The notes under the pieces are model-generated. The model was not told the DNA's origin, did no database searches, and worked only from the letters and a program-made list of their open reading frames with translations. The position numbers were made by a program, and so were the translations under genes. Below, piece after piece: positions 11,668 through 40,257 of a stretch of 64,000 bases of DNA (position 1 is its first letter; each line of letters opens with the position of its first letter). Origin of the DNA: Polytrichum commune (Eukaryota; Streptophyta; Polytrichopsida; Polytrichales; Polytrichaceae); the NCBI GenBank assembly GCA_950295325.1, contig OX485807.1:5832501-5896500 (forward strand), in the 5' to 3' direction.

Positions 11668-12006
11668 TTGTGTGTAATACACAACCAACATTTCAACGTG
11701 TCAGGGCATACTCGGAATGTCCAAAAAGGGTTTTGGGAACAAAGTCAGGGTAGAGATGTGGACACAGGTGAGCAGGCAGACGTTACTCCACCATGTGGAG
11801 AGATAAACCCGCTCCATTGGCAACAACAAGGAGAATTGCACAAGCAGAATTGTGGTGATCACTACCTGCTCGTGAACTGGCCCCAAAACCCCGAGTGCCC
11901 AGTCCAAAGCTTTTCAGTTACAACACACGATGCCCCAATAAACATGGACCGAAATCAAGGAGATGGGATGTACTTCCCGCAAGCGGCATTCAACCAGGAC
12001 CCGTGA
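11668..12006 (+). CDS. Candidate coding fragment, polar and Q-rich, unknown
   Basis: A 112-codon open stretch just right of the solo LTR is rich in Q, N, H and P (for example HWQQQGELHKQNCGD). That composition resembles the N-terminal half of the plus-strand TNP1-like gene downstream. It may be a displaced or relic exon of a CACTA accessory gene, or chance. I found no domain and cannot place splice sites with confidence. Confidence 0.2.
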   Translation: MCVIHNQHFNVSGHTRNVQKGFWEQSQGRDVDTGEQADVTPPCGEINPLHWQQQGELHKQNCGDHYLLVNWPQNPECPVQSFSVTTHDAPINMDRNQGDGMYFPQAAFNQDP

Positions 12007-15697: not shown

Positions 15698-18600
15698 ATG
15701 GCTGACCAATACGAGAATGCTCCCCTCGCCGACTTTGATGTTGTGAGAAGCACCCAATTTGTGGATGATTTGACATGTGGGGTATGTGGAGTTCGATTTC
15801 CTCATTTTCAAGTTGCATTCCTTTCATGCATGGATGTCTAGCAGTATATCATGCCTGTCATGTTAAGTGCGTGTTGCTGGAGCTCGGATCATGGGACTGG
15901 CTGCGCAATTGAGTTGTATTTGTTTCCCATGTTTTTCCACAGGTATTTAGGGTCGGACAGTCCCAACCTCAGTACGTTGATCGGACACAGGTGCACCGCA
16001 TCCCTACACTCATTACCTGAAAGTCAAGAAATGGTTGTCCATGTTTCTCAATGTGGGTCACATTGCTGTCAATGTCAAAGTGTTTTCTGTTGCATACAAT
16101 GTTGAGTGTCAGTATACAAACATGTGCTACAGCCGAATTTTTCTTTGTAAGTGTGCATATTATGGGTTGGGGGCGGTGACACTTGGTTTTTCTCGCATTA
16201 GAAATGTAAACCTAATCTTTGAGTTGGTGGCTATGCGCAGATTTTGGGGCTGCCTTATGCAAGGAGCTACCATCAACCACGTAGCACAATTCCATGGCAA
16301 AATGCCCAACCGGTTTTTGGCTCTATAGGTCCTCCGAGCCAGTCCATGTACAATCCATGTATGGGGACGCCCGTAGCATCATCGAATCAATACAGCAGCC
16401 AGCTGACATATTCCGCCCAGCCAAGAGAAAGCCAGTACGAGGGGTCGAATGGCAACCATATGTTGTTGCCAATGCACAATCTACCTCATGGTGCAGCATT
16501 TAGCTCTCAATCTGAGCACATGGCAGGGAAAGAATTCTACATTTCCCAACCATTCCCAGGTTCAGGACATGAGAACCCGCAGCCTCGCCTGCCCAACCAG
16601 GGTATGCCATTTGAAGACATAGGGGAGCATGGGTTGACTGGAGCCGTTCCACCGGTGGCAGGAGGTCCACGCGGGGCTAAAATCTTTGTGCAAGGAACGA
16701 GAGATGTGAGGGGGGGTCGTGGGGCTTCATGCCCTGACAAGGATTCAGTAACAGCATCACCTGGACCATCGACATTGGGGCGTTCTACGATCAACCAAAC
16801 TCCCAGTGCCCAACCTGCATCAGGAGGGGGTACCTTGCGCGACCAACATGACTCCATGATGGAGGATCTGACCCCAACACAAAACAACAATAATCCTCCA
16901 TTGTTAAGTTCCAATACCAGTAAGTCATCCCCACCCTACACGTCGTCTCAGAGAAAACAACTTAGAGTAGAAGAGAAGTCATATTTAAAAGAAGTGAAAA
17001 GATCCATAGCGGAAGGCAGAGTGCCACAAGTCCGCCTTGCACAAAACAGCAGTGGAGACATAGTGCAATACAAAACGCAATTCCTGAACGCCCTAAAATT
17101 AGCTGCACTTGCTATTGTTCCTCACGCTGATATAGACATTAAAAATCCCTCCACAATGCAAGAAATCATGACAGAAGTGAGGAGACAGTTTGTAATAGAG
17201 AAGCCTCTTCCAGAAGGCATGGTAGCGGGATTTCTGCAACGTCTGTATAAGAGAAATAGAGTTGTGTATCATGGTCATTGGACCGTACACGGTGACGAGA
17301 ATAAGCCTAACGATTGTTCATCAGCTGCGTGGTCACAATTGGTAGATTATTGGAAGTCAAGGGAAGGGAACAAAGAATGCGCAAGAAACAAGGCAAATGC
17401 TTCTGCAAAAAAATGCGCTCCAGTAAGATTTCCTACCCTCGACTCTTAGTATGCAAATTGGACATGGCAGTCCGTGCAGTCATCAATTTGGATACACTTT
17501 TATGACCAAATAATGTTCTTTCGCATAAGCAAGTTCAGAAACAACTATCACCGTTGTTGGAGTAGTCCCCTCACATTGTTGTACCATTTTCTTTGTGTGC
17601 TTCCATGTAGGAGAAGCGCAGGCACATGTCTCAAGGGAAGTCAAGTACAAGTGGAAGCACAGATGGTGTGCGTGGCAGTTCAAATGAGCAAGCCAAAACA
17701 TTCAAGCCAAAGGTATGTAAACATGTTAACCTGCTCCTTGGCGATTGCATTCTTTTATTGGCCATACCGAACCATTCAGTATAACATTAACATAAAGGAG
17801 TTAAATATGTGCATTATCTTCATGAGCAATGTTATGCACATAGATAAGGGTAACCCATTACTGTGCCGGTAATGCATGCTGCAGCTCAAAGAAAACATCA
17901 GCAGTGTCAAGACACCTCCTGGTCGCACTCAAGGCAGACATTCTTCCAAGGTGTCATCCTCAAACAGTGCTTTGCAGCGTCAACCCATGATCGAGATTAG
18001 CAACAAGTTGCATGCCATGGTGGACGAATTTGTGTCTAACATGTCCTCGGAATGTGACTCCCTGGCGAATAACATTTCAACTCAAGCTCACTCATACGCC
18101 GCGAGGGACAGTGGACCAGATGCCGCGAAGACTCCGAGGCTGAGCAACCGCAGCACAACGGAGGTGTTGAATGGATTAAGGAGGCCCTCTGGCGAGCATT
18201 CAACGGACCCTCATCACATAGAGGGGAAGTCGCGGCTGGAAAATGGGACGTCGAAGTTGCAAGACGGAAACACTAGGAACAGAGAGGGAGGGAGATTTGT
18301 TCGGCATGTGAGGGAAAAGAAGCCCAAGAGATCGACATTGGAGGAGACCGACATCCAGCATGATGTGACATCGGTGGATATCAGCTCCGAAAATACTTTG
18401 TCAAAAGATGAAGCACAGCATGGCCGAGGCACACATGATTTGGCGTCCATAGGTAATATCATGCAATCCATTGAGATTTTGTCATCAGACCACTCTTCCG
18501 ATGATGGCCTTCGTACATCCTTGAAATATTCCAGGAAAATGGTGGGAAAACAGAATAGCACAAAGTTTAGGAACTCAAGTTCAAGGGTTCGGCCAACAGA

Positions 18601-19753
18601 GGTAGATAAAAAAAGCCCATCGAGGTCCCCCGAAAGTAGTCATCTCATGGACTACAGCTATGAGGAGGACATGAATAGCCCTGGTGGGAAAAGTCCGCCC
18701 ACTGAGAGCCCCTTTATGAAGCTCAGATGGCCCAGGAATGCAGAGACTGTGCGCGAAGGAGGGAGTGTGAAGAAGACTGAGAATAACAGTGTGCATGGGT
18801 TGAATGAGTCCCGTAAGAAGAATGACAGAAAGAAACTCGTTGATGATGTCAACTTCCATGAAGGGGACGAGTCCAACGAGGAGGATACTGAGGGCGCTGA
18901 AAATGGAGATTCAGATGGGGAGGAACTGCCGGTGCTGCCCAAGGTTCCCGTTAAGCGCAAGTTAATGAGTGAGTCAAGAGGAGCCGAGAAGAGTAGCCAG
19001 AGAGGCAAAACCAAATCCGGGAACCCACAAACGAAGAAGCTAAGAACACCACAAATTGACGCCTCTGTCATAACAAAACTGGAATTTGGGAAGCGACCAC
19101 CGAATTGCGTAAGTACTGTTGCACTGTTATTGTGTGTTCCTGACAAAATTGGTTTGTGGATATCTCTATGCTACCGAGGTGCATCCATGGAGTCCATATC
19201 ATGCCATGATAGTAATTGACTTGTGGTTTCTCCATCTTTTTTGTAGAATCCAATCAGGGTAAGAGTGAAGGTTTGGGTATTGCACCCAGAATTTGAAGGG
19301 AAGGTTGTAGCAAAAGCGTATGCGGGAATCAATCACAAGTCCAGGTGCACAAACGACGAGCAAGATTTGTGCAAAAAAGGGGAGCAAATGATCTCTGTAA
19401 TCAGAGTCTTTTACAAGGACACTCCGGTGATGTTCTCAAAGGAGGGGCGTTTTCCAAAGCATATAGCCTTCCTTGATCAAGCGGAAGGACTACCCAATAG
19501 CCCGATTTTGTGGGGTGTCTCCTACATTATGCAGATCCCAAGCATGGAAGAAATAACCCGCATGATGGGGAAGGTCACGTCCGCAATTTGTGGCAGGGCG
19601 TCCTCTACTACTCTTGGAAAAGGCCTAGATGGGAAGACCTCCAAATCCCCCTGCAACAACAATGAAGTATCGGAAACTGTGAAACTGCGCTACTCTGCCA
19701 AATTGAAGAACAGAACCGATACAACAAAAGCATCGGGCAAGAAAATTTTATAA
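15698..19753 (+). CDS. CACTA accessory transposase protein, TNP1/TNPA-like (Transposase_24), six exons, intact
   Basis: In En/Spm elements the TNPA/TNP1 protein binds subterminal repeats and works with TNP2. The model joins 15698-15781, 15943-15990, 16241-17422, 17611-17712, 17885-19108 and 19247-19753. Every junction is GT-AG and phase 0, and the frame stays open for 1048 codons. Residues about 30-280 are Q/P/G/S-rich. Residues 281-432 match the plant Transposase_24 (PTTA/En/Spm) pattern: RVPQVRLAQNSSGDI, then RNRVVYHGHWTVHG and AAWSQLVDYWKSREGNKECARNKAN. Exon 5 is acidic, serine- and lysine-rich. The last exon (VKVWVLHPEFEGKVVAKAYAG ... NSPILWGVSYI) resembles the TNP1 C-terminal domain. The ATG chosen is the first that gives a continuous frame; extra 5' exons are possible. 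Its intactness contrasts with the broken TNP2 gene. Confidence 0.75.
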
Positions 19754-22281
19754 TGCAATTTCAGGTAATGTCAGTTCTTGTAATGTTGTTTCGCTTGATT
19801 GCTCTGTTTGTTAAACAAGCTACATTCGACTGTGAATTGCTGACACGATACCGGCATTCAATCTATAACTCGATGTTGCATCCCCGAGGAGTCATGTGGC
19901 GGCATCTCATCCTTCTCACATTGATGTAAGTGTGTCCCTGGACCCCTTAACTTGTTGTTCCCGAATCTGAAGCTGAGCTTGAAGTGCACCTCTGAAGTTC
20001 AGCCAAAATTATCATTTAATATGAACATCGACCTGCAATTTCCCCACATTCAAACGCACTCCTGTTTGCTACTTTTCGCAAGGTGCAGCCGACTTGTGGT
20101 CAATCCGAACTATGCGTTGCCTTGTTCCTGAATCGGTGGTCACAAACCGCTTATGTCCGGAACTCGGCTTCTGCGTCTGTACATAGTGGTCGATTCTCTC
20201 CAATCAGTGCAGCTCATGTGTATTCTAATTGTGTGTAATTTTAATGTGTTGTTATGCTGGATGCTGACAGCAGTGATTGCATCCGTATTGTCGATGTCTT
20301 GGTTCGGTACAACTTGTAGTTGAGGTGAGGCACACAAGCTGGTTCCTTTGATGTGCATGAGATTGTTGGCTATTGTGGTTTACATGCTTCGTTGCACCGA
20401 AGTGGGAACAGAAACGACTTGCATTGATCACACACTTGATGTTATTTTAGTGTAATGTGTGCGAGAACACCTGACACAGGTGTGGGATGCAGTATCGGAT
20501 GCATAATTTCTTGGGCAGTGGCGCACGGAGGATGGTTCGACATGGACGTCGGTGTTGTGCATCCTTGCAACCCGAATGGTTATGGACAGTGGCGGAGAAA
20601 CGGAGATTCATCGAGGTTTTTGCGAGAACAATAACCTGTAGAGTTCCAATCCGAAGGGCACTAGTGCGGTCTTACATGTTGTATGGATTCATCAAAGTTG
20701 ATGTCATTGCTTTGCATGACTGTGGGAGGTGGTGCATTTGATGGGTATATGTAGTCTCTATGTGTCTCATTCATTTTTTTTAATGAAAATAGTGTGCCTT
20801 CTCAGTATGAAGACAGGGGAATGGCAAAATTCAAGGAAGACGGTAGTCATCGAGACCTGCGGGATTGCAATGGCAGACAACAAACCACCACATGAAGAGT
20901 TTTGATCGGCAGGGGCCCTCCATTTTCCGTGCAGAGGGGCACAAGGAAGCAAGCATTGTCATATTTTTAGTTTGTGTTTATTTCCAATAATATAAGCAAT
21001 ATACGTAGTCAATTACATACACACAATGTAGCCATGTTTGTGGAGGACTCACTGTGAACTACATACTGAGCCAAGAGTTCTCATGGCATGCGGTACTCGC
21101 CAGCGAGTATGTAGTGGGAGGTCGGATGTTTGTGAAGACGACCTCCCGTTCTTGGCGTTCTGTACTTGTGGGAGCATCCCTGTTGAATATGAAATACTTT
21201 CGTAGCAAACAGCCTGCGAAAAAACATTGCATTGTTTGTCCTGGTCATTGGCATTTGAAATAATAATCAATAATGCATATCCTCCTATTACCACACTCTA
21301 CTGTGCATTGTGTCTCCCCAAACAGTTCCATATGTGGTTGTGTTGTGAAGTTCCCGACCAATCCACTGCATGCACAATGTGAAACACCACTCCGAAGATG
21401 ACGCATTATCGGGAGGCCATGAACATGGTGCCAATCGCCTTATTGAAAATTGTATATGTAGTTTAGACGTTGATGTAGTTCACACCCCAGGTCGAAGAAA
21501 CCCATCGCGTTCACTTTGTCGGGCATGCACACACACGGAGACTACGCGGTGCTATGCAAGCGTAAATAGTGATCTAAGGCAGAGGAGAACGGCAATTGGT
21601 GGACCATTGTGGCGTTCAGAAATAGGTATTCAAAGGTTTTGAATGTAGTTGTCACATTACTTGCAGTGTGGTATCTAGGTACACGAGTCCATCAACATTT
21701 AAATTGTGGGCCAAGAATTTGTTGCAAAGAGGTTCGCAGAACACCACTCTAGCAAAGTAGTGGAGGCCACACAGGAGGCATAATTACAGAAGTCAAGTGC
21801 AATTAAAGGACAGTCTGCAGATGCAGAACACCACAGTGCACTAAACAAATTTTCGAGTCCGTAAAAACCTCCACACAATGCGACTCGCAATCCGCAGTCA
21901 CGTGGGTGTTGAAGGGCTTGCTGATGCTAGATCTGCACCCAATTTTGGGTGCATGTAATTGCTGCGCAGTCGAGTTGTGTTCCAGGAATGCATTAAACAC
22001 GCAAACTTTTTTAGTTCCAGCGTATGTTGTTAGTTATTGACTGACACACAAACCATGCATAGAGTGCATCACCTTTTCACCGCTGGAAGGTCACGGTCAT
22101 GTGCAGCCGGGACTGGAAGCCCAAACCAGCATTCCCCTGGTTTTGCAAGCTACGCAGCTATATGCAAGTGACAGCCACCATGCACTATTAATGAATTTCG
22201 AGCCGACAGGACTGTGGGGATCCGCAACATCTCCAATTATTTGTGCATGGACATCATATTTAACCAACATTTGCTTCAAAT

Positions 22282-22317
<36 letters not shown>

Positions 22318-22526
22318 CATCGATCGCTGACGGAATTTGACAATCGCGAAAAATAATTGTATTTATGTACGTAGCTGTGAACAAAAAGAAAACCCGGGCC
22401 ACTTTGAATACGTTCATTGTCAATGTGTATTTCCAACCGACACCCAACGGAAACTTCAACTGTAACATGATTTCGCATTAGGTGGACACCCTTTGAAAAC
22501 AGTGGTCAAAAGAACTGCAATGGGAA
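19754..22526. other. 3' flank and subterminal region of the CACTA element
   Basis: No gene is visible. The sequence has the mixed, word-rich texture of a CACTA subterminal region. Words like TGCATTGTG, CACAATG and TTGTGTGC occur on both strands, for example near 21025, 21299, 21372 and 21880. I could not define one binding motif by eye. Confidence 0.4.
22285..22313. repeat. (TA)n microsatellite
   Basis: About 29 bases of uninterrupted alternating T and A lie inside the CACTA subterminal region. Confidence 0.95.
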
Positions 22527-22565
22527 AATGACCGCGGTTCTTTTTTATCATGTTTTCTACTAGTG
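22527..22565. repeat. CACTA right terminal inverted repeat
   Basis: The stretch runs from ACCGCGGTTC through a T-rich block to TTTTCTACTAGTG. Read from the outside it begins CACTAGTAGAAAA, as expected for a CACTA terminus. It abuts coding sequence of the minus-strand DGQH gene at 22566 and supplies that gene's new stop (CAC TAG). Confidence 0.8.
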
Positions 22566-24472
22566 AGGCTTCATCTGCTTGAAGCGCGAGGTTTGGTTGA
22601 AATAAATGTCAGTGTCGGGATCGATCAAATCCCCCGTCTCGTGCTTTTCAAACACGGTTTTCCACTTCCTCCAAACTTAGTCCGATGCTGTAATCAAGTA
22701 AATCTCCCCCTTGAGGTCGTTGTATTTCTTCTGCTTGTGGCTCGAATTATCAATGGAGGAGAATTTGTTGATCATTTGGTATTTGAAATCCTGGACGTAA
22801 AAAAAACATAACATTTGAATGCGTGTTAGATATGTACATGTGATTTTCAAACCATATCATGATCAACATCTGCAACAAGAGTTTGGGTCGATCGACCCAA
22901 ACTAAAAAATACAAGACTACAACAATTGTTTGGGTCGATTGACCCAAACTAAAAAACACAAGACTGCAACAATTGTTTGGATCGATCGACCCAAACTAAA
23001 AAAATACAAGACTGCAACAATTGTTTGGGTCGATCGACCCAAACTAGAAAACACAAGACTGCAACAATTGTTTGGGTCGAGCGACCCAAACTAGATAAAC
23101 AAGGCTGCACCAGGTATTTGGGTCGGTCGACCCAAACAATACTCACCTCCCACTTGGGATTCTTGTCCTTCGCATTCTCCCTCTCCTTGGGAGGCCTACC
23201 ATAGAACTCCCACACCTCCCGCGAGGCCATGATATTCCTTATCCAGGACGCTTGGTAGGCCCTCTTCTTGTTTCCCATATTGAAGTACCGGGAGATGTCG
23301 CTGAGCTTGGCCTCGTCGTCAGACCACACCACCAGTGCCTTCCAAACCTTCAGCTTCTCCTTCTGATTGTTCGGATCATCCCACTCATTCATAAGTTGGA
23401 TTTTCTTGGATGCCTCCACGCTGTGCTGGCCGTCTATGAGCCAAAAATCGCCCTTCTGAATTGTTGGCCACATTTCAGGTGTAGGCATTTTCTTGAGACC
23501 CTGTGGCATCACTACAATCGTTTGTCTGTCGTCTTTAAACTGCTCGCAAACGATCTGCGCGATTATCCAGTCAACGTAGGCGTCCTCCTTTGCCCGGACA
23601 CACTTCTCCGGTGGCGCTAGATGGCACTGGCTGATGTTCACGTCGAACTTGAAATCCCTGCCCATGAAAAAACAGTGGGAGCATTTCGTTGTGAAATTGT
23701 TCACGATTTTCTGCAGCTCCCCTGCATCCACCTCTTCGCCGGGCTTCGGCATGCGCAACTCCGGTGATACTGGCTCGTCAGTCATCACAGAGGACTCTCT
23801 CGCCCGCTTGGATGGAGTTGTTTGACGGCTCCCAGAAGGTGTAGGCGTCTCGCTATCCGTCGGTGTTTGTGAGGGAGTGGTCCTCCGTGAGTCAGCCGGT
23901 ACTGGTCGCGGCTTCCTCACCGATTGAGGTCTTGACGACCCTGCACCTTCCTCTGTTGTAGCTTTCCGCCTCACGGGTTGCTGAGACTTGGTTTTGCTCT
24001 ACAGGGCTTTGTTGAGCACGTTGATTGCATGCTTTAGTTTCGTGAATCGGCTCGACACCTTTGTGTTCGATGTACTGTTATCGATGAATATGGACTCCGG
24101 TTTGATGACGTCTGGTTCTACACATGTTTCTTTTGCATAGATAGCGTCAAAGGGTTCGGAGAACTGGTGCATAAGCATATGCGCGTTCTGGACAGCGTTG
24201 TTCTCGATGATGACATCCACGTAGTCTCCAAGAGACTGAACCGATGCCACCTCCCACCCCATAAGAGTAGCCCATGTGTGCTTCTCCACGGTCCCAACCT
24301 TCACAACAAAAATCATTTTGTATTGCGAACCCTTAACCACTTGGATAGACCACGCGAGGACAAGCCCGTCCTTAGGAACGTAGGAGTCATCTTCCGGTGT
24401 TTCGTGCTCTTGCCATATCATGTCTGGCGCAAGCATGAACCACCTTTCGCCTAGTCGTTTCTTTGGGGCCAT
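22566..24472 (-). pseudogene. ParB-like (DGQH motif) protein gene, truncated by the CACTA insertion
   Basis: The reading starts at ATG 24472, directly after a TGCAG acceptor-like sequence that implies a leader intron. Exon 1 is 24472-23147. After a GT donor, an intron of 356 bp is filled with palindromes; exon 2 begins at 22790 and is cut at 22566 by the CACTA end. Residues 1-157 are an unrecognised domain (ERWFMLAPDMIWQEHE). A proline/threonine-rich basic linker follows. Then comes a ParB/DGQHR-type core: VDWIIAQIV, TIVVMPQ, and FWLIDGQHSVEASKKI near codon 347, with ISRYFNMGNKKRAYQASWI after it. ParB-fold proteins of this type include nucleases, CTPases and the DndB-like DGQHR family; the activity here is unknown. 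Two in-frame stops, TAG 23999-24001 and TAA 22677-22679, each fit a CAG or CAA codon changed by C-to-T. The domain call rests on motif resemblance only. Confidence 0.7.
22881..23137. repeat. Palindrome array A: six 22-bp inverted repeats in an intron
   Basis: Copies start at 22881, 22928, 22975, 23023, 23070 and 23116, so spacing is 46-48 bp. Each has arms GTTTGGGTCG and CGACCCAAAC around two centre bases (AT in four copies, AG, GT); three copies carry a single arm change. The linkers are themselves repeated ('aaaacacaagactgcaacaattgt'-like). All six lie in the intron of the DGQH gene. Confidence 0.95.
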
Positions 24473-24498
24473 CTGCAAGGAATGAAGCCCCAATGTTA

Positions 24499-25092
24499 GT
24501 TTCGATCGGTCGACCCAAACTTCTTCAAACTGAATAGAAGTCACGTAATGTAATTGAAATGTAATAGATTGCCGCATGTATTTTGTTGGTTTGTGTATTG
24601 TTATATGTGAACATCATTTAATGGTGATATTGTATTTTTATTTTTGGGTGGACTTGCATTTTATATTGTATCTAACATCATAGATTGTTTGATGGGTTTA
24701 TAATTAGAAGACTGTGTTTGGGTCGAACGACCCAAACATTAGCCCTTGTTTGCGTCCAGCGACCCAAGAATGAGAGGACCCTAGTTTGTATTGTTATATG
24801 TGAGCATCATTTGTATGCTGACATCGGATTATTTAGTTTTGGGTGGATTTGTATTTTATATTGTATCTAACATCATGGATTTCTTTATGAGTTTAGGGTT
24901 TAGAAGACTGTGTTTGGGTCGAGCGACCCAAACATCAGCCTTTGTTTGGGTCGAGCGACCCAAACAGCAGCCTTTGTTTGGGTCGATTGACCCAAACAAC
25001 AGTCTTTGTTTGGGTCGATTGACCCAAACAGCAGCCTTTGTTTGGGTCGATCGACCCAAACAGCAGCCTTGTTTGGATCGTCTCCCCAAAGT
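24499..25092. repeat. Palindrome array B: nine copies upstream of the DGQH gene
   Basis: Copies start at 24499, 24716, 24748 (degenerate), 24912, 24944, 24976, 25008, 25040 and 25071 (degenerate). The five from 24912 to 25040 are spaced exactly 32 bp apart, with a ten-base linker such as 'agcagccttt'. The array lies in the leader or promoter of the minus-strand gene. Confidence 0.93.
24585..24935. repeat. Tandem duplication of ~195 bp carrying a palindrome
   Basis: Segment 24585-24745 (from 'gtttgtgtattgttatatgtg' through 'ttatattgtatctaacatcat' to 'agaagactgtg' plus a palindrome) is repeated at about 24782-24940 with moderate divergence. It shows that palindromes in this leader spread partly by segmental duplication. 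Confidence 0.8.
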
Positions 25093-25249
25093 GTTTTTTA
25101 CTAATATATTTAAAAAGTTTGCACGTAGCATAAACAATGCTTATGCGTTGTGTATGCTACAACACTAAGAATTAACAAACATAACACAATACCTTTGAAA
25201 TTTGTTGTGCAGACACTTTGGAGTAGATGATTTCTCTTTCCAATAACCC

Positions 25250-25650
25250 TCAATAACAACTCTGGAATCTCTGAAACAACTATTCAATCTCAAACAACTC
25301 TGCAATCCCTCAAAGAACTCTTCAATCTCTCAAAGAACTCTTCAATCTCACAAACAACTCTTCAATCTCTCAAACAAATACTGGATCTCTAAAAAGATTT
25401 CTAAATCTCGCAAACGAATTCTTAATCTCTCAAACGACTTCTAAATGTCTCAAGGAACTCCTGAATCTATCACAAAACTACAGAATCGCTCAAACGACTT
25501 TGAAATCTCTCAAACTACACAAGAACTCCTGATACTCACAAGCACAATCTCAATCTCCTACACGATGTTCTCCTAACTTTTTGCAGCACTCTTCAACACT
25601 CTGCAACACTCTTCAACACTCTTCTTCAACACTCTTGAAAACTCCTCTAC
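25250..25650. repeat. CTC(A)AA minisatellite-like tract
   Basis: The tract is an imperfect tandem array of about 20-bp units of the form 'tctcaaacaactcttcaa' (25255-25520), grading into 'caacactctt' repeats (25585-25640). It has no coding potential. Confidence 0.85.
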
Positions 25651-25743
25651 TAAGTTCCTTTACCCTCACGCACTAAACCGTTCCTCCGCAAGTTTTTGTG
25701 CTTTTCAACACTCTTCCTAAACCCTAAGATTGGAGAAGAGTTA

Positions 25744-25784
25744 TGCAAGAGCAAGAGCAAAAGCAAAAGCAAAAGCAAAAAGAG
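25744..25784. repeat. (AGCAAA)n microsatellite
   Basis: About six units of 'agcaaa', slightly varied to 'agcaag', end in 'aaaagagaaa'. Confidence 0.9.
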
Positions 25785-26083
25785 AAATAGACAAGAAGAA
25801 GCAGAAATGGTAGGAATACCGCGCCTGAATCGCCGCGGCGCTTCCAAGCGAGGCGCGGAGAGAGAGAGAAAGAATTCGAAAAGGTGACGTTTGAGGTTTT
25901 GTTCGCCTCGGGAATTGGCCCCACCACCGCCAATAGGCGGCCCACAGGATTAGGGTACCCACGTAATTAGGATTTTGGGGAACCCTAAATCCTAAAGCCT
26001 AACTCTAAACCCTTAGCGGGTATTACTTATTTCAATGAACTAAGGTGCTACATGAAATATACTAAGGTGCTACATGAAATATA
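25785..26083. other. No gene seen
   Basis: This is a GC-richer patch (25810-25950) followed by 'accctaaatcctaaa'-type words near 25980 that look like degenerate telomere-type repeats on the opposite strand. Confidence 0.4.
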
Positions 26084-27512
26084 CTAAGGTGCGGTGCCAA
26101 GGCATTCTTGCAACAAAACTTTATGCCAAAGCTTATACTTAACCCCTACTTACATGACACCATACACTAAACTTTCCAAACAAGTTGAAGTCGTTGGTTT
26201 CTCTTTTGTTTGAGCAGGTTAGAAAAATAATACAATTGCGTGACATATAACGATGTAATCATTGACATTTAAACTTTCCCAATGATGCCAACAACTATGC
26301 CTTTCACCACGTTTGAAGGCCAAGGATTAACCAACTGTTTTTTAAAGCGTTGATTATAAGTTATGAAAGGTTGCTAAAATTCAAATGAGTTTAAGGGTGA
26401 AAGTCCTCACCATCTTCTGATTCAACCTCTACTCTTCCTGCAAGATATAGCCTAAAGATATGTACTTAGGCCAACTAATTTCCCAATTTGAAGAAGGATG
26501 AATGACTAAAATCCTCTCTTTTAAAAAATTTGTAGGTAAAATTTCCTACATGTTTTTTTATCACATACTAGGTTGATATCCTATGTTCTTAAATTGTGCA
26601 TAGGCTCTTTGTCCTACACTCTCAAAATTTTATAGGCTAAGTCACTTATTTTTTAGGCTGCATTTGTATTAATCACTATATTCGTTAATTTGGGATGGTT
26701 TAGGTAGGACGACCCAAACATTAGACTATGTTGTTGTGGTCCTGCTTTAAAATTGGTTCTAAGCCTTTGAAATAATTGGATGACTTTATGGTTATATTCT
26801 CAAACCTAAGTTTGATCCAAGACTTCATGTATAACTCTACTATGATGTATAAAATGCCCCCCACCCCCACCTCGCACCCCACCAAAGCTTTTGTACAAGT
26901 TTCTCAAGTTTTCAATCCCTTGTGGTTGTGATCATTTCCTAATCCACTAGACTATTTTCTCTAATTAGTGTGGCATAACATTCGGAGTTACACATTTCTG
27001 TAACATTTAATAGAAAGTATTTTTTCATCCAAATAACATAACTAGGTAGTATGCACACGAAAAATTATGATATGACTTAGTTCGTAAAAAACAATAATGT
27101 CGGTAAAAAGTTATAGCAAGACATAATTCTGAAGTGCACAAGTGCACCTCTCGTTCATCCAACATAAAGCCCTTAAATAGTATGTAACTTAAATAGTATG
27201 TAACTTGAAGGCTATTCAACATAAAGCCCTTAAATAGTATGTACCTTGAACTCTGGAGTACACTAAGGTGCTACATAAAATGTGTTATTCTACTAAACTA
27301 ACCATTTATATACCCAATGCATTCTTACAACAAAACTTTGTGCTAAACGAATACTTAACCCTTACTTACATGACACCATACCCTAAATTTTCCAAACACA
27401 TTGAGGGCATTGGTTTCTCTTTTGTTCGAGCATGTTAGGAAAACCATACAATTGCGTGATATTCAACGATGTAATCATTGACATCTAGACTTTACCAATG
27501 ATGCCAACAACT
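26040..27512. repeat. Pair of diverged direct repeats (~220-250 bp)
   Basis: Copy 1 (about 26084-26299) and copy 2 (about 27262-27512) share 'ctaaggtgc', 'gcattctt(g/a)caacaaaactt', 'cttacatgacaccata', 'ttggtttctcttttgtt(t/c)gagca' and 'aacgatgtaatcattgacat'. Copy 1 is preceded by two extra 'ctaaggtgctacatgaaata' units. Spacing is about 1.2 kb with no gene between. They could be LTR-like remnants or a simple duplication. Confidence 0.85.
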
Positions 27513-27707
27513 CACACGATATTGAATGAATAAAAAAGTCTACCCACACCCCCTAACATGTGGAACAATTTAGAATACTTGAGTGTGGAGCCTATTAAAT
27601 GAATACATTCCCCAACTGCATTTTGTAAGGGTTTTAAAATGCATGAGCCTTATTTGAAAATGCTAACATGCTCAAGTTTTAAGTACATCCCTGATATTGT
27701 GACTTTG

Positions 27708-28541
27708 ATGAATCGCAGAGTGGCCAATAAACCATGGTTCACGATATATTTAATATATATTAGATTGTGATATAAGAGTAAATCGGAGAAGCAGAACATC
27801 AAATGGAGACATTCAAGCAATCATGTTGTTATACATGTTGCCTCCATGTATATTAGATGATGGCGCAAGATAAAATAGATGTTGTTTGTATATGGGGGCA
27901 TCAGTGAACCACAACTACATTTGGTGTTTAGGGTTTAGGGTTTAGGGTTTAGGAGATAGGGTTATAACATATTAATCTATCCAATGTCAATGTATAACAT
28001 TGTCTTACTGGTGAGAAGAGTCTTATAGGAAGGTTATAGTAAAGACGATCTTGATTATGTTAATTTGTTATTTGAGACATTTAAACACGATATATTGATT
28101 GCTCTTGTGTTTATTCAAATAACATGAAATGTTGTGGATGTTAATAGGGGTTAGGGGTGCAACTTTGGATGTTTTGCTCACTTTAGGGAATCACATAGTC
28201 GCTAATAAACCATGGTTCATGATGTATTGAATATATGAAATGTGATGCAAAAGTTAATCGGAGAAGCACAACATGAAATGAAGCCATTCAAGCAATCATG
28301 TTGTTGTTCATTGTTCTCTCCACGTGTATTAGATAATGGAGGAAGATATAACATATATTGTTTGCATAATATGAAGAAGAGTCTAATCGGAAGGTCATAG
28401 TAAATACAATCTTGATCATGTGAATATGCTATGTGGGACGTTTAAACAGGATATCCTAATTGGTTTTGTATTTAGTCAATATGTATTTCATGTTGTGGAT
28501 GTTATAAGGGTTTAGGGTCCAATTTTGGATGTTTTGCTCAC
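27708..28541. repeat. Tandem duplication, period ~480 bp
   Basis: Copy A (about 27710-28180) and copy B (about 28189-28541) share 'aataaaccatggttca', 'cattcaagcaatcatgttgtt', 'ggaaggt(t/c)atagtaaa' and a closing 'ttttggatgttttgctcac'. Copy A alone carries a ~115-bp insert with telomere-type repeats at 27905-28015. Confidence 0.85.
27927..27953 (+). repeat. Short interstitial telomere-type repeat (TTTAGGG)
   Basis: Nearly four perfect TTTAGGG units lie in a row. This is the Arabidopsis-type plant telomere unit. Scattered single 'gggtttaggg' words occur nearby (28507, 28698). The tract is far too short to be a chromosome end. Confidence 0.95.
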
Positions 28542-29453
28542 ACACATTAGTAAACTTGAAGTGAACTTGATGATGGATTCAAGTAACATTAAAAGATTGA
28601 ACTAAAAAGGGACATTGCTAGTTAGTATCCCCTTAACAACGTCCACAACGTGTTCGTCATTCCCACACTTGCATGCGAGATAATAGAGCAATGTTGTAGG
28701 GTTTAGGGTTTAGTGGAGACAAATAAATAATTCTATTCATCATGACAATGGCCTCAAGCCTTGGAAACTCTCTCATAATTGCAGCCTCCAAATGGCCCAA
28801 ACCCCACCTAAATAGGTTTACACTTGAAAGCATTGAATGGAGTTGTGTTTGGGTCTACATATTGGTTAAAATATGCCGTGATGATACTTGAAAAAATTAA
28901 TGTGGCCGCCACCCTTCCTCCCAATGGCGTATGTCATATCCACACAAAACAAAAAAAATAGATTAAATAACATAGACTAAGTCATATGACGGCTGGGGTA
29001 TCAGAGGGGCATTCATAGATGCGCACTTTTCTACTATAAACAGAAAACGGGGAATGCTGTCAGGAGGTTTGAAATAACCTTTGCAAGAGAAGAAGGCGGG
29101 GAAGGCATCCAATGACAAAGTCTGGGAAGCGGAGGTGGATAGTATAAAGGGGCGCACCCCCCAGAAGTTGGTCATTTTTTTCTCTTCTCCCGCTGCCGAA
29201 TTCGTAGAGAGAACTCTTAATAGGAGCTGTACTTCAAGGTTCGTGCATGCTGCCATTCATGAGCACTTATCCACAGCATGCAAGTTCATGAGCACCTACC
29301 CACAGCATGCAAGCCCACCGTGAAGTTTGCAATGAGCTCAAATTCACCACACCACGCAATATCCGCCGCATTATACGCCGGATTTTGTGGTGTACTTGGG
29401 CGAACCTTCACCTTTCCACTAGTGTTGGCGGGTTTTGAGTCTAACCCTATGAG
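28542..29453. other. No gene seen; includes a short tandem duplication
   Basis: No credible coding region. At 29257-29312 a ~27-bp unit ('catgagcactta(t)ccacagcatgcaag') is present twice in tandem. The stretch leads into the palindrome array upstream of the DUF7869 gene. Confidence 0.5.
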
Positions 29454-30432
29454 GTTTGGGTCGACCGACCCAAACTTGTCCACTAGTGTGTAAGGGTTTA
29501 TGTATGACCCTTAACAGGTTTGGGTCGGTCGACCCAAACCCCAACCCCAGTGTGTTAGGGTTTTTTTTTGACCCTTATGAGGTTTGGGTCGACCGACCCA
29601 AACCCCTACCTGGTGTGGGTGGATGTACCCTTGTGAGGTTTGGGTCGACCGACCCAAACCCCTACCTGGTGTGGGTGGATGTACCCTTGTGAGGTTTGGG
29701 TCGGTCGACCCAAACCCCTACCCCAGTGTGTTCAATTTTTTTTTACCCTTATGAGGTTTGGGTCGACCGACCCAAACCCCTACCTGGTGTGGGTGGATGT
29801 ACCCTTATGAGGTTTGGGTCAGTCGACCCAAACCCCTACCCCAGTGTGTTCAATTTTTTTTTGACCCTTATGAGGTTTGGGTCGACCGACCCAAACCCCT
29901 ACCTGGTGTGGGTGGATGTACCCTTATGAGGTTTGGGTCGGTCGACCCAAACCCCTACCCCAGTGTGTTCAATTTTTTTGACCCTTATGAGGTTTGGGTC
30001 GACCGACCCAAACCCATACCTGGTGTGGGTGGATGTATCCTTGTGAGGTTTGGGTCGGTCGACCCAAACCCCTACCCCAGTGTATTCAATTTTTTTTACC
30101 CTTATGAGGTTTGGGTCGACCGACCCAAACCCCTACCTCGTGTGGGTGGATGTACCCTTATGAGGTTTGGGTCGGTCGACCCAAACCCCTACCCCAGTGT
30201 TTTCAATTTTTTTTGACCCTTATGAGGTTTGGGTCGACCGACCCAAACCCCTACCTGGTGTGGGTGGATGTACCCTTGTGAGGTTTGGGTCGGTCGACCC
30301 AAACCCCTACCCCAGTGTGTTAGGGGTTCTGTCTGACCCTTGTGTGGTTTGGGTCGGTCGACCCAAAGCCCTACCCCAGTGTGTTAGGGTTTCAGTATGA
30401 CCCTTATGAGGTTTGGGCCGGTCGACCCAAAC
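29454..30432. repeat. Palindrome array C: 17 copies upstream of the DUF7869 transposase gene
   Basis: Copies of the 22-bp inverted repeat start at 29454, 29518, 29582, 29638, 29694, 29756, 29812, 29875, 29931, 29992, 30048, 30109, 30165, 30227, 30283, 30347 and 30411. Arms are GTTTGGGTCG and CGACCCAAAC. The centre is AC or GT, and from 29638 to 30283 these alternate strictly with only one arm mutation (29812). Linkers alternate too: 'cccctacctggtgtgggtgg...' after AC copies and 'cccctaccccagtgtgtt...' after GT copies. The higher-order unit is therefore about 117 bp with two oppositely oriented palindromes. The array ends about 200 bp before the gene's ATG. Confidence 0.96.
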
Positions 30433-30632
30433 TCCCACCAAAATATTTTCTGGAACTTATTTTGGACTTGCGCACAGTGTTGGGAGTTCACAGTGTAGTT
30501 GTGTTGGAAATGTCTTCATCCTCGGTGTCCCCATTGATCATGGTATCTTGCATTTTCTGATATTTGATTCTTTTTAGACCCTTACATTCTTTCCATGTGT
30601 GTTAAGGTTTCATGTGCATGTGTGTAGGCGCA

Positions 30633-33600
30633 ATGGAGGGAGTTGGTGGAAGAGGGGATTCCTTCTCTGACGACATGGGCAACACGCAATCTACGTCTGG
30701 GGATGAGCTAGACATTGTCGGGGAGGATAGTTTTGATGACAGTGCAGATGAAGGTAACTTGGGGAGTCCTTTACCATCTGCCCCTTCTTACCCTATTGTG
30801 GAATGTGCGGGGCTTTCACGAGCATCATGGGTGAATTTGGATGTGGTACTTGTTAATGACAATGGAGTTGCTGTGGCGGAGGGTATTTGTCATAACACAC
30901 ATCCACAAGATTGCATTGATGAAAATCCCCTTGGCTCCGACGACGTTGGAGTTGTTATATTGGAATCACTCGTACATTCCAAAGTGAATCCAACTCATAG
31001 GTTCTCGTTGCGAAGGTGGCCGTTGAGGAATGTGACAATTGAGGGGGTTAGCTTGCATGACCATGAGCGACGACACATCCAAATCCAACACGAGCTCCAA
31101 ACACACATTAGGCCACGCAAAGGCCTACGGAAGTACGATACATTGGCACGTCCTATTCCGTCTACAAATGAGTGTAAACGTCAAAGGTTGCTATGTGAGG
31201 AGTCTATTAGAGAAGTTGCCACAAAGGATTGTTGTGTACATCGTTGTTGCCAATTGTTTCCAAGGGATAAATTGAAGGCCATCCGCGAGGAAATGTGGCT
31301 TGGAGATTTCCGTCTCAGATCCACTAAAAAGCTTGATGTCCATAGGGCGATACATGTGAACGGAGCGGGTCGCAAGGTCATCACCCTTGAGAGCATAGAC
31401 GTGTGTTGTACGGCATGGTACACCATTCACGGTGTGTCGAAAGCGGAATTTTATAGACAAGCCGCGTATGCCAAGGAAGGACGCCGGTCTCGTCACCATG
31501 GGAATACGGGCTTGAAGAAACCAAGGGAAGCAACGAGACAAGCAACAGCCACTCTGGCAACCATCATTGTCCCCCTTGCCGATGCAATGCCGTACAAAAC
31601 ATGCACACTCGCAACCGGTGAAAAGGTTGTGGAGAAGATTCTTCCTATAGGCACGAAATGGAAAGACATATTGTTGGATGTAAACGCAGTTGGCGAGAAG
31701 GCTGGGTTGGACCCTATTTCGTTGTCGAAACTGAGTGCAATCAAAAAATCGAACTTTAGCGAATACATCACAAAAAGACGAGGCGAAAAATTTGCCCGTT
31801 GTTCCAAATGCGAGAAGTTGAAACGCCTTCGAGATGCACACACGATGGGGACAGAGTCCTATGCAGCACATCAAATGAACTATTTCAAGCATGTGAACAT
31901 GCAAGAGGCACACCGTAATGATTACTACACAAATAGAGCTTTGTCCATCTCTAGGCCTTTGGAGGTCCTTACAATCATCCATGATAAAATGGACCATGCC
32001 AAAACAGCCTCACCATGTTTTGCAAATCGAATCAAAGCCATGGACGGCCTTTTTAAGCTTCATGTATCGGTTACAGGTGATTTTGATAACAATTGCATTG
32101 CATTACCTAAACACAAATTTGTGCTTTTAGGTTTGTACTTAGGGCCATAGATGTACACCATGTGAATTTTTTGGTGTTATAGTTGAATATTAAACCATTG
32201 GGGTGGCTTTGCAGGAATGATTGCACATGGGCATGGTGATGTCAAGTATGCTCATTATGCTCTTGATTTGTATCCGGCGGATTCAAACCACACGATAAGG
32301 TCATTTGCAAAGCTTTTACGTGATTTGGAGAAACTGCCGTCCTATTCATCAAGATTGTTATTTGAAAACTCGGGATCAACACCTCTATATGAAGCGGTCT
32401 TGGATGGAAGAGATGTATGCGTGCACTCCTTGCCAGAGCCACCAAGTGAAGATGTGATTGCCAAGAATTTGCCCCCAACTCTGCGTGTCCAGTTGGACAA
32501 TTATGCGAAGGATAATGAAAATAGATATGTTTTTGCCTATTGGTCGTTGTTGGTTGCGAAAGGCATTTTCAAGGAGGTTTTTGTGTCCTTTCTATTGGTA
32601 GGCCATACGCACGATGATATCGATGCATCTTTTGGGCGGTGAAGCATGAAGTTGCGCGAGGAGGATTTTCCAACAATCCCATTGTTGATGAAGTCGTACA
32701 TGGATTTGGAGAACATTCCCGTCATCCCCCATATGATCGAGGAGGTTCCAGACTTCAAGGCATTTATAGAACCGTATATTCGAAGCGGAGCTCACCGATT
32801 GATCGGGCATACGAAGGCACAACAATTTCGGTTCTACGTGCGTGACGATGGTGTCCCCGCCATGCAATACAAGTTGTTGTGCACATCACAAGACTGGAGC
32901 CCGCCGGAGGGTCTCCTTGTATGGCGTGTTGATGGGGAAGGAAAGATGATGTTGCCTGACGGAGAGCCTAAGCCTTGCAAACCAATACCCATGAAGAATT
33001 TGGAGGACATTTGTAAAGGCATATCAGGCTTCATACAATATTGGGAGAGTTTGAGGGTAGCGGATGTTGGTGGATCGTGTTGGCTTCGTTACGAAAGTTG
33101 GATACAATATTGGACACGTGTTCGTGGCGCTTTGGCAAACCTTCATCAAGATACACCCCTTACTTTAAGGCATGGGTTTTGGCCACAAACTCGTGTCAAT
33201 GTACAACCTTCGGAGGCTAGTCTTTTGGGAAATGCAGAGGTTCGAGAGGAGTTTGATGTGGACGACCATTACGTGGGGCCTGCTAGTAGTCGTCCGCCAC
33301 CATCTTTCCGCATTGCAGTGGATTGTCATGAAGGTTATATGCTCATTTTGCGTCCTGGAGATGAGACATATGCAAAGCCATTGTGGGTGGCAAGAGCTTT
33401 GTCCAATCCAAATTTTGTAACTTCCAGCCCTCATTTTCGACAAATACAAGTAGAGTACTACCGACCGACAGCATGGAATGAAGATGTTGTTCGGCATTAT
33501 ACAGGTTGGGATACAAACCAACACTTTCGGTGGAAGGTGGATTCTGAGCACGGTCCATCTTGGGTAGATACAAATTCCATATTTATAGCATGGAAACCAC

Positions 33601-33701
33601 GGAAAAATCATAGTGGATCAATGTCCATCCCTCAAAAGTACATAACTTTTGCAAAAGACAACCTTGCTCGGATCGCAGAAGAAACAACCCACGTTGAATG
33701 A
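30633..33701 (+). pseudogene. DUF7869-type DDE (RNase H-like) transposase gene, one in-frame stop
   Basis: Two exons, 30633-32076 and 32215-33701, join in phase (GTTACAG/GTGATT ... TTTGCAG/GA) to give 976 codons. The N terminus is acidic. A cysteine/histidine segment (CCVHRCCQLFPRDKL) and a second one (FARCSKCEKLKRLRDAH) look zinc-binding. The core has the spacing of an RNase H-like transposase: IIHDKMDHAKT (first Asp, about codon 450), VQLDNYAKDNENRYVF (about 572) and LLVGHTHDDIDASFGR (about 610). The C-terminal third, with GDETYAKPLWVARAL and VEYYRPTAWNEDVVRHY, looks like a small BAH- or chromo-like module (weak). An in-frame TGA at 32640-32642 replaces the Trp expected in FGR-W-SMKLR. ATG 30633 is chosen because a TGTGTAG acceptor-like site precedes it; an in-frame ATG at 30612 also exists. 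DUF7869 identity is from motif memory. Confidence 0.78.
32077..32214 (+). other. Intron of the DUF7869 transposase gene
   Basis: This 138-bp intron starts GTGATT and ends TTTGCAG. Splicing joins VTG to MIAHGHGDVKYAHY, restoring a motif run that is continuous in relatives as I recall them. Without splicing the frame ends at 32150. Confidence 0.85.
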
Positions 33702-34403
33702 AAAGTTGGTAGGATTGTGTTAGCATGATTATAGTGTAATATGTAATTCGACAAATATATATTACTCATATGTATGCTCCTCAAACTTGGGGCAAAGTTT
33801 GGGTAGAATTTGCGAATGCTATATTGTTTGGGGTTGGATGAATATCCATTTACTATATTTCAATACAGTTGTGAAGTTCATTTTTTTTATTAAGTTTGGG
33901 ACTAAATTTTCCATTGAAGAAAAATGCATTTATTGCATGCACTTTGTATGTTGCAATGTCTATATTTTATTGACCATGCTAATAATAGAAATCATTTTAT
34001 ATGTTTCTTGGGTGAAACTAGTTTGGAGTGCTCTACCCAAAGTGTTTTTGCTGATGAAGTTGGTGTTGAGTGCTCTACCATATGTGCTTATGTCCACACA
34101 TAATAGATTTGGGAAATTAGAACATATAATATATTTGAGATTGTTCGCAATATAGTTTCGGAACACGGAATGTTGTTTGATCCATATATTAATTTGAGAC
34201 TAGAGAAAGTCTCAATTTAACGAATATAGTGTTTGATATGAAATTCAAGCTAACCCCTTAATAACTTTTAAAGGCTTAAGACATATGTGGTCCAAATATT
34301 GGGCTCACATATGTGTATTACTTCATTTCACAAAAAATAACTTGTATATAGGGGGTTTTAAGAGTATGCAGTGAACGCACGTGATTCTAGGTTTTAATGA
34401 AAG
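33702..34403. other. No gene seen; 3' flank of the transposase gene with a degenerate palindrome
   Basis: AT-rich. At 34021-34042 the sequence TTTGGAGTGCTCTACCCAAA, followed by 'gtgttttt', resembles the degenerate palindrome at 25071 that is also followed by 'gtgttttt'. The right limit of the transposase unit may be near here, but I found no terminal inverted repeat. Confidence 0.4.
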
Positions 34404-39600: not shown

Positions 39601-40257
39601 AGACTTGTCCAACATGATCTAGATAACCAACCAGAAGAGAGTGGAGGATGAACCACGAGAGCGGCAAGTTATCCACCCAATCGATTTGGTTATCAATCAC
39701 AACCGATCAACTCACAAACAAAATATGAGAATTATAGACGATATTGTGCCTCCAAGAATGAAGCATCGTGACGAATTACGATTTAACCCCTTTTGCTCTT
39801 GAATGAACAACATAACATTACTCAACATTGTACTTCCATTTCCGTGGGTCCTGAGAATATAACCATGGAATGACTTAGATTCAAACTAAGGTCCCAACCA
39901 GTGCCCGGGGAGTTTTTGGGCATAGTCGGTCAAGATCCTAGTGACTCTAAACCCAACCAGTTACATGTTGATATCTTCTGGTTTTGCTTATTCATTTGAG
40001 GTATATTCTATAGATTCCTTTGTAATGATCGGTAATTCTCCTGAAGTCTCGAACTTCAACCGGTTATTTCTCAAACTCAACCGGTTCACCCGTAACTAAA
40101 TGACAGTTCCTCCCGGACAGTGGTCCCAACATCCCATGACTATATTCCTAGGGTCCACAGAACGAACACACAACATTGAGTAATGTTATGGATTAATTAA
40201 GGCTCGGAAGTAGAATAACATGTGTGAACCGTCTCAGTCAAAACGGATGCCATGGAG
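39601..40257. other. No gene seen
   Basis: Ordinary intergenic sequence. 'ctcaaccggtt' and 'aaccggtta' words cluster near 40055-40090. The stretch ends at the target duplication of the MITE. Confidence 0.4.

Follow-up and report, generated by a model that had tools for sequence, protein, structure and literature searches.

A palindrome that accompanies a large putative DNA-binding gene inside a candidate DNA transposon of Polytrichum commune

Our analysis of a 64,000-nucleotide stretch of P. commune DNA (the window) points to a candidate DNA transposon with two genes in head-to-head order and many copies of one palindrome in its non-coding parts. On balance we lean towards a cut-and-paste element whose gene 1 protein would bind the element's own palindromes and thereby mark it against silencing, in a manner resembling VANC. 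This reading draws on the arrays themselves, on similar sites in the introns of gene 1 relatives and on the termini that enclose both genes.

Palindrome Arrays in the Window

The inverted repeat GTTTGGGTCG-NN-CGACCCAAAC was found 31 times in the 64-kb window at up to 3 mismatches, where none is expected by chance (0 matches in 100 dinucleotide shuffles of the window), and 298 of its 310 dyad pairs are intact. All copies are confined to 22881-30432, in agreement with the earlier note, which had seen no comparable array elsewhere in the window. They form groups of six (22881-23137), seven (24499-25061) and seventeen (29454-30432), with one degenerate copy at 26698, and the three arrays differ both in spacing (46-48, 32 and 56-64 bp) and in their spacers. 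Both ATGs have arrays on their 5' side, possibly within 5' introns, and intron 2 of gene 1 holds another, which bears out the placement proposed earlier for a repeat shared by the two genes. Palindromes of the window that lie outside gene 1 are:

26698..26719, no strand, degenerate palindrome with 2 mismatches, adjoining an internal terminus-like sequence at 26674
29454..30432, no strand, array of 17 palindromes with 56-64-bp spacing, upstream of gene 2

A satellite or chance repeat was ruled out by the zero count in shuffles, by the three differently spaced arrays with different spacers and by the absence of palindromes from 107 kb of nested and surrounding DNA. Searches for exact matches returned 0 in viral contigs and 0 in GTDB genome contigs.

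Gene 1 and the Nested CACTA Transposon

Gene 1 lies on the minus strand (ATG at 24472) and reads as a multi-exon gene with many relatives, the top one being P0001 (93% identity over 85% of the 518-aa query). The parts of this region are:

24473..25192, minus strand, predicted 5' intron (intron 1) of gene 1, donor CAAAG/GTATTG and acceptor CCTTGCAG/ATG, read from the sequence
23147..24472, minus strand, gene 1 exon A+B (442 codons), encoding the N-terminal part, which includes the DGQH core
22791..23146, minus strand, gene 1 intron 2, donor GAG/GTGAGT and acceptor CCAG/GATTTC
22566..22790, minus strand, first part of gene 1 exon C, cut at 22565 by the nested CACTA
1..22565, no strand, right part of the nested CACTA transposon, with Transposase_21 and DUF4218 matched

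Intron 1 carries palindromes at 24499, 24716, 24912, 24944, 24976, 25008 and 25040, the last five (24912-25040) forming a 32-bp tandem unit, while the six of intron 2 (22881-23137) follow a unit of about 47 bp. The end of gene 1 had been placed at 22566; the gene is instead interrupted there by the CACTA transposon and continues beyond the left edge of the window, where exon C picks up at about -6568 and matches to relatives reach about -9323. The inserted element measures 29,130 bp (-6564 to 22565), with termini CACTAGTAGAAAA and Pfam matches to Transposase_21 and DUF4218 (DUF4216 fell below the cut-off). Both features used here to recognize CACTA/EnSpm elements, a 3-bp target duplication (AGG) and Transposase_21 in the element's own transposase, are present. 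The nested CACTA splits gene 1 and stands outside the palindrome system. It had escaped the earlier note, as had the methyltransferase-like C-terminal half of gene 1 and the tie of the palindromes to this gene.

In-frame stops occur in gene 1 near 24001 (the one stop within the 442 codons of exon A+B), near 22679 and further on in the last exon. Together with a stop at 32640 in gene 2, they make this copy look non-functional, with both genes apparently broken.

With regard to domains, the gene 1 proteins had no match above a curated cut-off in Pfam or NCBIfam, and their best match in PHROGs (E 0.0051) was to a family of unknown function. A PDB profile search with the N-terminal part gave no match, and the match of the C-terminal part to a nanobody (E 0.011) was taken as spurious. 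Searches of viral contigs for gene 1 relatives brought up 20 and 84 candidate stretches, none of them confirmed, and tblastn with P0144 in phages and P0145 in plasmids yielded none. Profile comparison suggests, with moderate support, that the C-terminus resembles N4/N6 DNA methyltransferases (hhalign P 2.6e-4, score 37.8, probability only 42%). The alignment covers 57 columns at the C-terminal motif region, and 0 of 200 column shuffles reach its score; without the distant relatives L012 and L013 the probability is 1.7% (P 0.029, 2 of 200 shuffles). L013 itself matches PF01555 below the cut-off (E 0.033) and L012 does not match. Compared with N6/N4 DNA methyltransferases such as E. coli YhdJ, the C-terminal motif region aligns, but large extra regions are present here. 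By eye, DFRN stands at the place of the usual DPPY motif, so that catalysis is doubtful and the catalytic motif looks lost.

In hhalign, the DGQH core bears a weak resemblance to ParB-like domains over 16 columns around the DGxH motif (probability 4%, P 0.01, a level that 2 of 200 shuffles reach), and a PHROG ParB-like profile matched P0067 weakly (E 0.28). The ParB-like label given earlier to this core is tentative; the gene 1 proteins showed no ParB-like Pfam match.

Gene 2

Gene 2 lies on the plus strand (ATG at 30633) and also reads as a multi-exon gene with many relatives:

30633..32076, plus strand, predicted exon 1 of gene 2, DUF7869 protein
32215..33701, plus strand, predicted exon 2 of gene 2, with the DUF7869 domain and an in-frame TGA at 32640

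The match to Pfam DUF7869 (PF25273) is clear (E 6.1e-30, 104.7 bits, cut-off 26), and the protein keeps the conserved aspartates. It had been described as a transposase, a putative assignment based on the conserved acidic residues and on the position of the gene inside terminal inverted repeats (TIRs). A literature search for DUF7869 found no papers. Elsewhere in the window a very distant DUF7869 remnant (47588-48945) has no palindrome nearby, which argues mildly against a general tie between palindrome and DUF7869; a palindrome array beside a DUF7869 gene is known from this copy only.

Palindromes in Introns of Gene 1 Relatives

Palindrome-like peptides were found in 22 of 23 intron-2 and 14 of 14 intron-3 read-through stretches of gene 1 relatives, counting stretches of at least 12 aa excised by pattern, in a sample where P0009 and P0054 are degenerate and P0002-P0004 near-identical. 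The intron-2 count is 22/23 rather than 23/24 because P0030 was misparsed and dropped. Dyad-compatible 7-mers numbered 34 in 608 for intron 2 (about 8.5 expected) and 24 in 454 for intron 3 (about 6.4 expected), the expectations being taken from the 1.3-1.4% rate in coding controls. The strict palindrome peptide was present in 26 of 73 gene-1-family proteins and in 0 of 73 DUF7869 matches. On this wider evidence the palindromes appear tied to gene 1, not to gene 2. Upstream of the ATG, two of 3 readable tails had a match, one of them probably by chance. P0010, with a tail ending in VWVD that may be a truncated copy, had no 7-mer match; P0058 carries LGRSTQT but was not caught by the parse. In P0145 one strict peptide (residue 880) lies in apparently coding sequence.

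The motif varies among related elements. Some peptide variants have both arms changed (FGRTPET, FGRPTET, FGPVGPN, FGPTGPN) and others are half-changed (LGRATET, LGRPTET), while L012 and L013 carry a different palindrome in the same introns. The latter, TTCAGCTCGA-N-TCGAGCTGAA, is present in 8 copies in each at up to 3 mismatches (0 in 200 shuffles), within GTAAGT...CAG introns 2 and 3 and in the flanks, and has only the central TCG..CGA in common with the gene 1 palindrome. Its exact core occurs in 12 copies in a 4.8-Mb bin, solely on those two contigs.

The Candidate Outer Transposon

When flanks from the same genome were included, a candidate transposon was delimited from -12086 to 34232, one copy of which was seen:

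-12086 to -12060, outside the window, left terminal inverted repeat, 27 bp
34206..34232, minus strand, terminal inverted repeat on the right, 27 bp, with 1 mismatch against its left counterpart
34233..34238, plus strand, TTGATA, 6-bp direct repeat flanking the element on the right, with the matching left copy at -12092 to -12087

The inverted termini are identical at 26 of 27 positions (blastn of 20.7 kb left vs 40.3 kb right, E 2.8e-6), for a single copy and with the terminus chosen after the flanks were seen. With 27-bp TIRs and TTGATA on both sides, the element has the features of a TIR (class II) DNA transposon; its mobility is inferred from this one copy. A TIR search of the window alone missed it because its left end lies outside. 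The element's own sequence holds 36 palindromes, compared with 0 in the nested CACTA and 0 in 77,681 flanking bases, and across the 124 kb examined the palindrome at up to 3 mismatches occurs only within the candidate element. The proposal that the two genes and their shared arrays constitute one mobile system is thus strengthened, as a single candidate element, bounded by TIRs and flanked by a 6-bp repeat, encloses them all.

The outer termini read ACACTA..TAGTGT. Assignment to CACTA/EnSpm was rejected, since the flanks next to CACTA (TAA/TTT) mismatch and gene 2 encodes DUF7869, not Transposase_21. IS3EU transposons are described, in the text considered here, as usually having a 6-bp target duplication and TA..TA ends (PMC10045372). 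The 6-bp duplication is shared, but the termini (ACACTA, not TA) do not fit IS3EU. In the same blastn comparison, a longer inverted match further out (-23223..-23041 with 40119..39939; 183 nt, 84%, E 9.8e-50) has a second, partial left match and is therefore presumed to be a dispersed repeat. The internal sequence at 26674 resembles the right terminus (1 mismatch in 19; 86% over 29 nt) and allows a smaller, gene-2-only element, though with no matching flanking repeat.

Comparison With Known Systems

Bacterial parS sites are not known from introns and work with a partition ATPase. As in ParB/parS, a ParB-like core (weak) is combined here with palindromic sites near its own gene, but these palindromes also sit in introns; a Pfam scan of a subset of the window's ORFs gave no ParA match.

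VANC proteins are anti-silencing factors of Arabidopsis VANDAL elements, which are MULEs. According to the portions considered here of Hosaka et al. (2017; PMC5735166), the motifs of VANC are placed inside introns and ahead of the transposase gene, and they vary among related elements and their proteins. Similarly, the present element has an accessory gene beside the putative transposase gene, and its short motifs form tandem arrays both within introns and 5' of gene 2; these arrays occupy non-coding DNA and the motif differs between related elements. The likeness is one of layout, and the VANC21 motif has 9 bases, is arrayed in one orientation and is not palindromic (PMC5735166), unlike that of gene 1.

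The closest case in our literature search, which found no palindrome-bearing ParB-type transposon, was the Ectocarpus transposon Sola1-1_Ec32, with a ParB-like and N4/N6 methyltransferase accessory protein (Dinatale et al., 2025; PMC12477816). In the text available to us, its authors suggest that proteins of this kind may bind the transposon that carries them and modify it, and palindromic sites or intron arrays go unmentioned. Both systems feature a large protein with methyltransferase-like and, weakly so in gene 1, ParB-like regions, on the strand opposite the transposase in a giant DNA transposon; here, gene 1 is on the minus and gene 2 on the plus strand, both inside the TIRs. They differ in that a DUF7869 gene takes the place of the Sola1 transposase (PMC12477816) and that the catalytic motif of gene 1 looks lost.

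Proposed Role of the Palindromes

In the mechanism that we favor, a cut-and-paste DNA transposon measuring about 17.2 kb, or 46.3 kb once the nested CACTA is counted, would carry two genes head to head, gene 2 encoding a putative DDE-type transposase of the DUF7869 kind and gene 1 a large accessory DNA-binding protein with a DGQH/ParB-like core and a DNA-methyltransferase-like C-terminus. The gene 1 protein, presumably as a dimer, would bind the 20-bp palindrome of its own element, many copies of which are found in gene 1 (5' intron, other introns and close to the 3' end) and ahead of the transposase gene. By analogy with VANC/VANDAL, binding at many sites would most likely mark the element and let both genes escape host silencing, and it may also tune their expression. 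The binding role of gene 1, its dimeric action, the anti-silencing effect and any activity at all are what we infer from this arrangement.

It is rather unlikely, in our view, that gene 1 serves as an ordinary auto-regulator, or loads onto DNA in a ParB-like way for copy cohesion or replication, with no anti-silencing role: the arrays that precede both genes or lie in introns, and the weak ParB likeness of the DGQH core, are in its favor, but sites also occur near the gene 3' end and in several introns, and no partition partner was noted in an inspection short of a profile search. Nor do we expect the palindromes to be binding sites of the DUF7869 transposase, comparable to subterminal repeats, with gene 1 a passenger. 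The 17-copy array does precede gene 2, and at 160-350 bp from the left terminus there are three degenerate copies; however, intact copies are found mid-element, the 3.8 kb next to the right end contain none at up to 3 mismatches, only one 5-mismatch site (34021) was found in the last 530 bp, and elsewhere palindromes accompany the gene-1 family while the distant DUF7869 remnant has none.

We regard as improbable a juxtaposition of two unrelated elements, one with gene 2 (about 26673 to 34232) and a separate one with gene 1, the palindromes having been captured. The terminus-like sequence at 26674 and the lack of another two-gene copy among those seen would suit it, but the outer termini match better (26/27) and are the sole pair with a flanking repeat, and the same palindrome occupies both halves. 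Least credible of all, to the point of being very improbable, is an action in RNA, by intron hairpins aiding splicing or transcript control. Location in introns and some symmetrically changed, stem-like variants agree with it; against this, conservation extends to the innermost pairs, which a hairpin whose loop has 1 or 2 bases could not form (30/31 and 28/31 palindromes at positions 10 and 13; 16/16 and 15/16 L012/L013 sites at positions 10 and 12), and some copies lie beyond the last exon.

Few cases are known in which transposons discriminate their own from host DNA and evade silencing. If gene 1 does bind cognate intron palindromes, natural protein-site pairs of differing specificity would be available from at least two lineages for studying how specificity evolves. 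If true, self-marking by gene 1 would likewise point to a function for the ParB/methyltransferase proteins of algal transposons and possibly offer a new sequence-programmed tool for plant epigenome work. Such accessory proteins are already known from algal transposons, and it is the cognate intron palindromes that appear new. More tentatively, and with somewhat less than even confidence, the system may be a form of self-recognition in a plant transposon family, assembled from prokaryote-like components, in which a ParB/methyltransferase-derived protein that has lost ordinary catalysis reads a long palindrome across introns and promoters, site and protein having co-evolved, convergent with VANC and a eukaryotic cousin of ParB/parS. 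Under such self-recognition, the site would have been almost wholly replaced between lineages, with the intron positions kept.

Palindrome arrays and candidate element boundaries

According to the earlier note, two divergent genes, gene 1 (with a ParB-like DGQH core) and gene 2 (with an RNase H-like transposase core), constitute a candidate two-gene mobile system sharing a 22-bp palindrome, arrayed 5' of both ATGs and in a gene-1 intron. Our analysis supports the shared palindrome: GTTTGGGTCG-NN-CGACCCAAAC occurs 31 times in the window at up to 3 mismatches, with 0 expected, and all 31 copies lie between 22881 and 30432. Within arrays, conservation is 98-99% in the arms, the central two bases are variable, and 298 of the 310 dyad pairs of these copies are intact. 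A satellite unit was ruled out as a reading, since the three arrays differ both in their spacers and in their spacing (46-48, 32, and 56-64 bp) and thus have the dyad as their common feature. Conservation of the innermost dyad pairs argues for dyads that would act as DNA rather than as RNA hairpins. An exact lone half-site GTTTGGGTCG was also observed at 40432, outside the element; measured against the full palindrome, this site differs at 6 positions.

The main features are as follows (negative coordinates lie in the left flank, outside the window).

Genes and outlying palindromes of the element
24472, minus strand: ATG of gene 1, from sequence reading
30633, plus strand: ATG of gene 2 (DUF7869), from sequence reading
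-7760 and -7724: palindromes left of the window, in gene-1 intron 3
-9035, -8966, and -9357: palindromes left of the window, close to the gene-1 3' end
-11925, -11836, and -11736: degenerate palindromes GTTTAGGTAGGGCAATCCAAAC in the left flank near the left terminus, about 90-100 bp apart

The window derives from a 408-Mb assembly of 64 contigs, and 60 kb of flanks were added to it. Gene 1 is split by a nested CACTA transposon of 29,130 bp (-6564 to 22565; termini CACTAGTAGAAAA, duplication AGG), which carries Transposase_21, DUF4218 and, below its Pfam cut-off, DUF4216; long ORFs at 16223-19753 had no Pfam match. The remainder of gene 1, at about -6568 to -9323, carries on the reading frame of exon C. 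Inverted repeats of 27 bp, ACACTATATTYGTTAAATTGAGACTTT, are located outside both genes at -12086 and 34232 (26/27 identical, blastn E 2.8e-6) and delimit a candidate element of 46,319 bp, which comes to 17,186 bp once the nested CACTA is subtracted. Both termini are flanked by TTGATA; the terminus was placed one base outside the sequence CACTA after the flanks had been inspected, and the chance of this 6-bp match is therefore estimated at roughly one in a thousand. Allowing up to 3 mismatches, the whole element contains 36 palindromes, of which 25 are exact, and at this threshold none was found in the nested CACTA or in 77,681 flanking bases. The degenerate GTTTAGGTAGGGCAATCCAAAC copies may represent an older form of the site.

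The same comparison yielded a longer inverted match outside the element (-23223..-23041 against 40119..39939, 183 nt, 84%), which is probably a dispersed repeat. A smaller element carrying gene 2 and bounded internally near 26674 is possible, given a terminus-like sequence at 26674; together with the degenerate palindrome that follows it (26674-26719), this sequence resembles the subterminal stretch at the element's left end.

Gene 1 and gene 2

A splice-acceptor-like sequence directly precedes the ATG in both genes, so the upstream arrays may lie within predicted 5' introns. The search for gene-1 relatives, in which longer annotated proteins could be missed due to a limit on protein length, returned 69 proteins and 4 more, drawn from sources labelled ena, lgn, jgi, ncbi or src and none from uniref or nr. 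Their exon layout is A+B (about 442 aa), C (about 445 aa), and D. With two distant loci, L012 and L013, included, the C-terminal part matched YhdJ-type N6/N4 DNA methyltransferases (P 2.6e-4 and a probability of 42% in hhalign; the score over 57 columns was 37.8, against a maximum of 23.9 among 200 column shuffles); without them P was 0.029 and 2/200 shuffles were equally good. By eye, the methyltransferase DPPY motif reads DFRN in gene 1. For the DGQH core, the best alignment was to ParB-like YbdM and ParB-like proteins of phages; it falls on the DGxH motif and is weak (P 0.01, 16 columns, 2/200 shuffles).

Regarding gene 2, the window protein was aligned with 49 of its 73 matches, those of at least 600 aa. 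Four aspartates (D454, D576, D616, and D618 in the numbering of the spliced protein from the window) hardly vary across this alignment, nor does a CxxC...H pattern. This is consistent with a DDE transposase of RNase-H-like fold, the fold we take DUF7869 to have. All six matches with a species in their name are from mosses (1 Ceratodon, 5 Physcomitrium), which makes a bryophyte the likely host. A second, very distant DUF7869 remnant lies at 47588-48945 (minus strand), its best piece being 30% identical to the protein P0070, with no palindromes nearby.

Palindromes in gene-1 relatives

Predicted gene-1 relatives often translate on into introns, and intron stretches of at least 12 aa were scanned for 7-residue peptides that a 22-bp dyad could encode. 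Such peptides were present in 22 of 23 correctly parsed intron-2 stretches and in all 14 intron-3 stretches, amounting to 34 in 608 7-mers and 24 in 454, respectively, while the coding-control rate of 1.3-1.4% predicts about 8.5 and 6.4. Strict palindrome peptides occurred in 26/73 gene-1-family proteins vs. 0/73 DUF7869 matches; DUF7869 proteins would not be expected to extend into an array lying 200 bp ahead of their ATG, so the latter count is compatible with arrays there. Variants changed in both arms were seen in the gene-1 relatives P0052 (FGRTPET), P0065 (FGRPTET), and P0146 (FGPVGPN and FGPTGPN), along with half-changed ones in P0065 (LGRATET) and P0015 (LGRPTET).

Searching contigs of prokaryote genomes with a profile retrieved two loci, L012 and L013, both from a bin that bears the title uncultured Synechococcales cyanobacterium AVDCRST_MAG81, presumably from a desert-crust sample. 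The gene-1 relatives at these loci share 34-39% identity with P0067, another database relative, and have GTAAGT...CAG introns at places corresponding to those of gene 1. Given these spliceosomal-type introns, the bin probably contains eukaryote DNA, and the two loci are probably misbinned. In each, TTCAGCTCGA-N-TCGAGCTGAA is present 8 times when up to 3 mismatches are allowed, against 0 in 200 shuffles; this palindrome overlaps that of the window only in the central TCG..CGA. Seven of the 16 copies are in introns 2 and 3, five beyond the last exon, three ahead of the first coding exon of L012, and one past a NIF-phosphatase gene of L013. The exact core occurs 12 times in the 4.8-Mb bin, always on the L012 and L013 contigs. 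Neither exact palindrome was found in the other's DNA, that is, the window type in L012/L013 or the L012/L013 type in the window-lineage DNA examined. The simplest reading of these sequences would be that the site and the gene-1 protein change together while the positions are retained.

The NIF-type phosphatase gene (L013 5170-6611, Pfam E 2.4e-14), with the L012-type palindrome downstream at 6591, is possibly a cargo gene or a host gene.

Possible role and known systems

We infer that the gene-1 protein would bind the palindrome dyads. In Arabidopsis VANDAL21, whose VANC21 is an anti-silencing protein, arrays are described in accessory-gene introns and upstream of the transposase gene, with a motif varying among relatives (PMC5735166). 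The element resembles this portrayal in all three respects, and by this analogy sequence-specific anti-silencing by gene 1 is favored, ahead of an auto-regulatory role of gene 1 and of palindromes serving for transposase binding. Algal transposons with ParB-like and N4/N6-methyltransferase proteins have already been published (PMC12477816). Our search of the open-access literature found no account of cognate intron palindromes in transposons bearing ParB/methyltransferase proteins, and no paper naming DUF7869.

Finally, the window also contains, at 59834-60307 (minus strand), the beginning of a gene resembling those for triose-phosphate transporters (below the Pfam cut-off, at E 1.4e-4).
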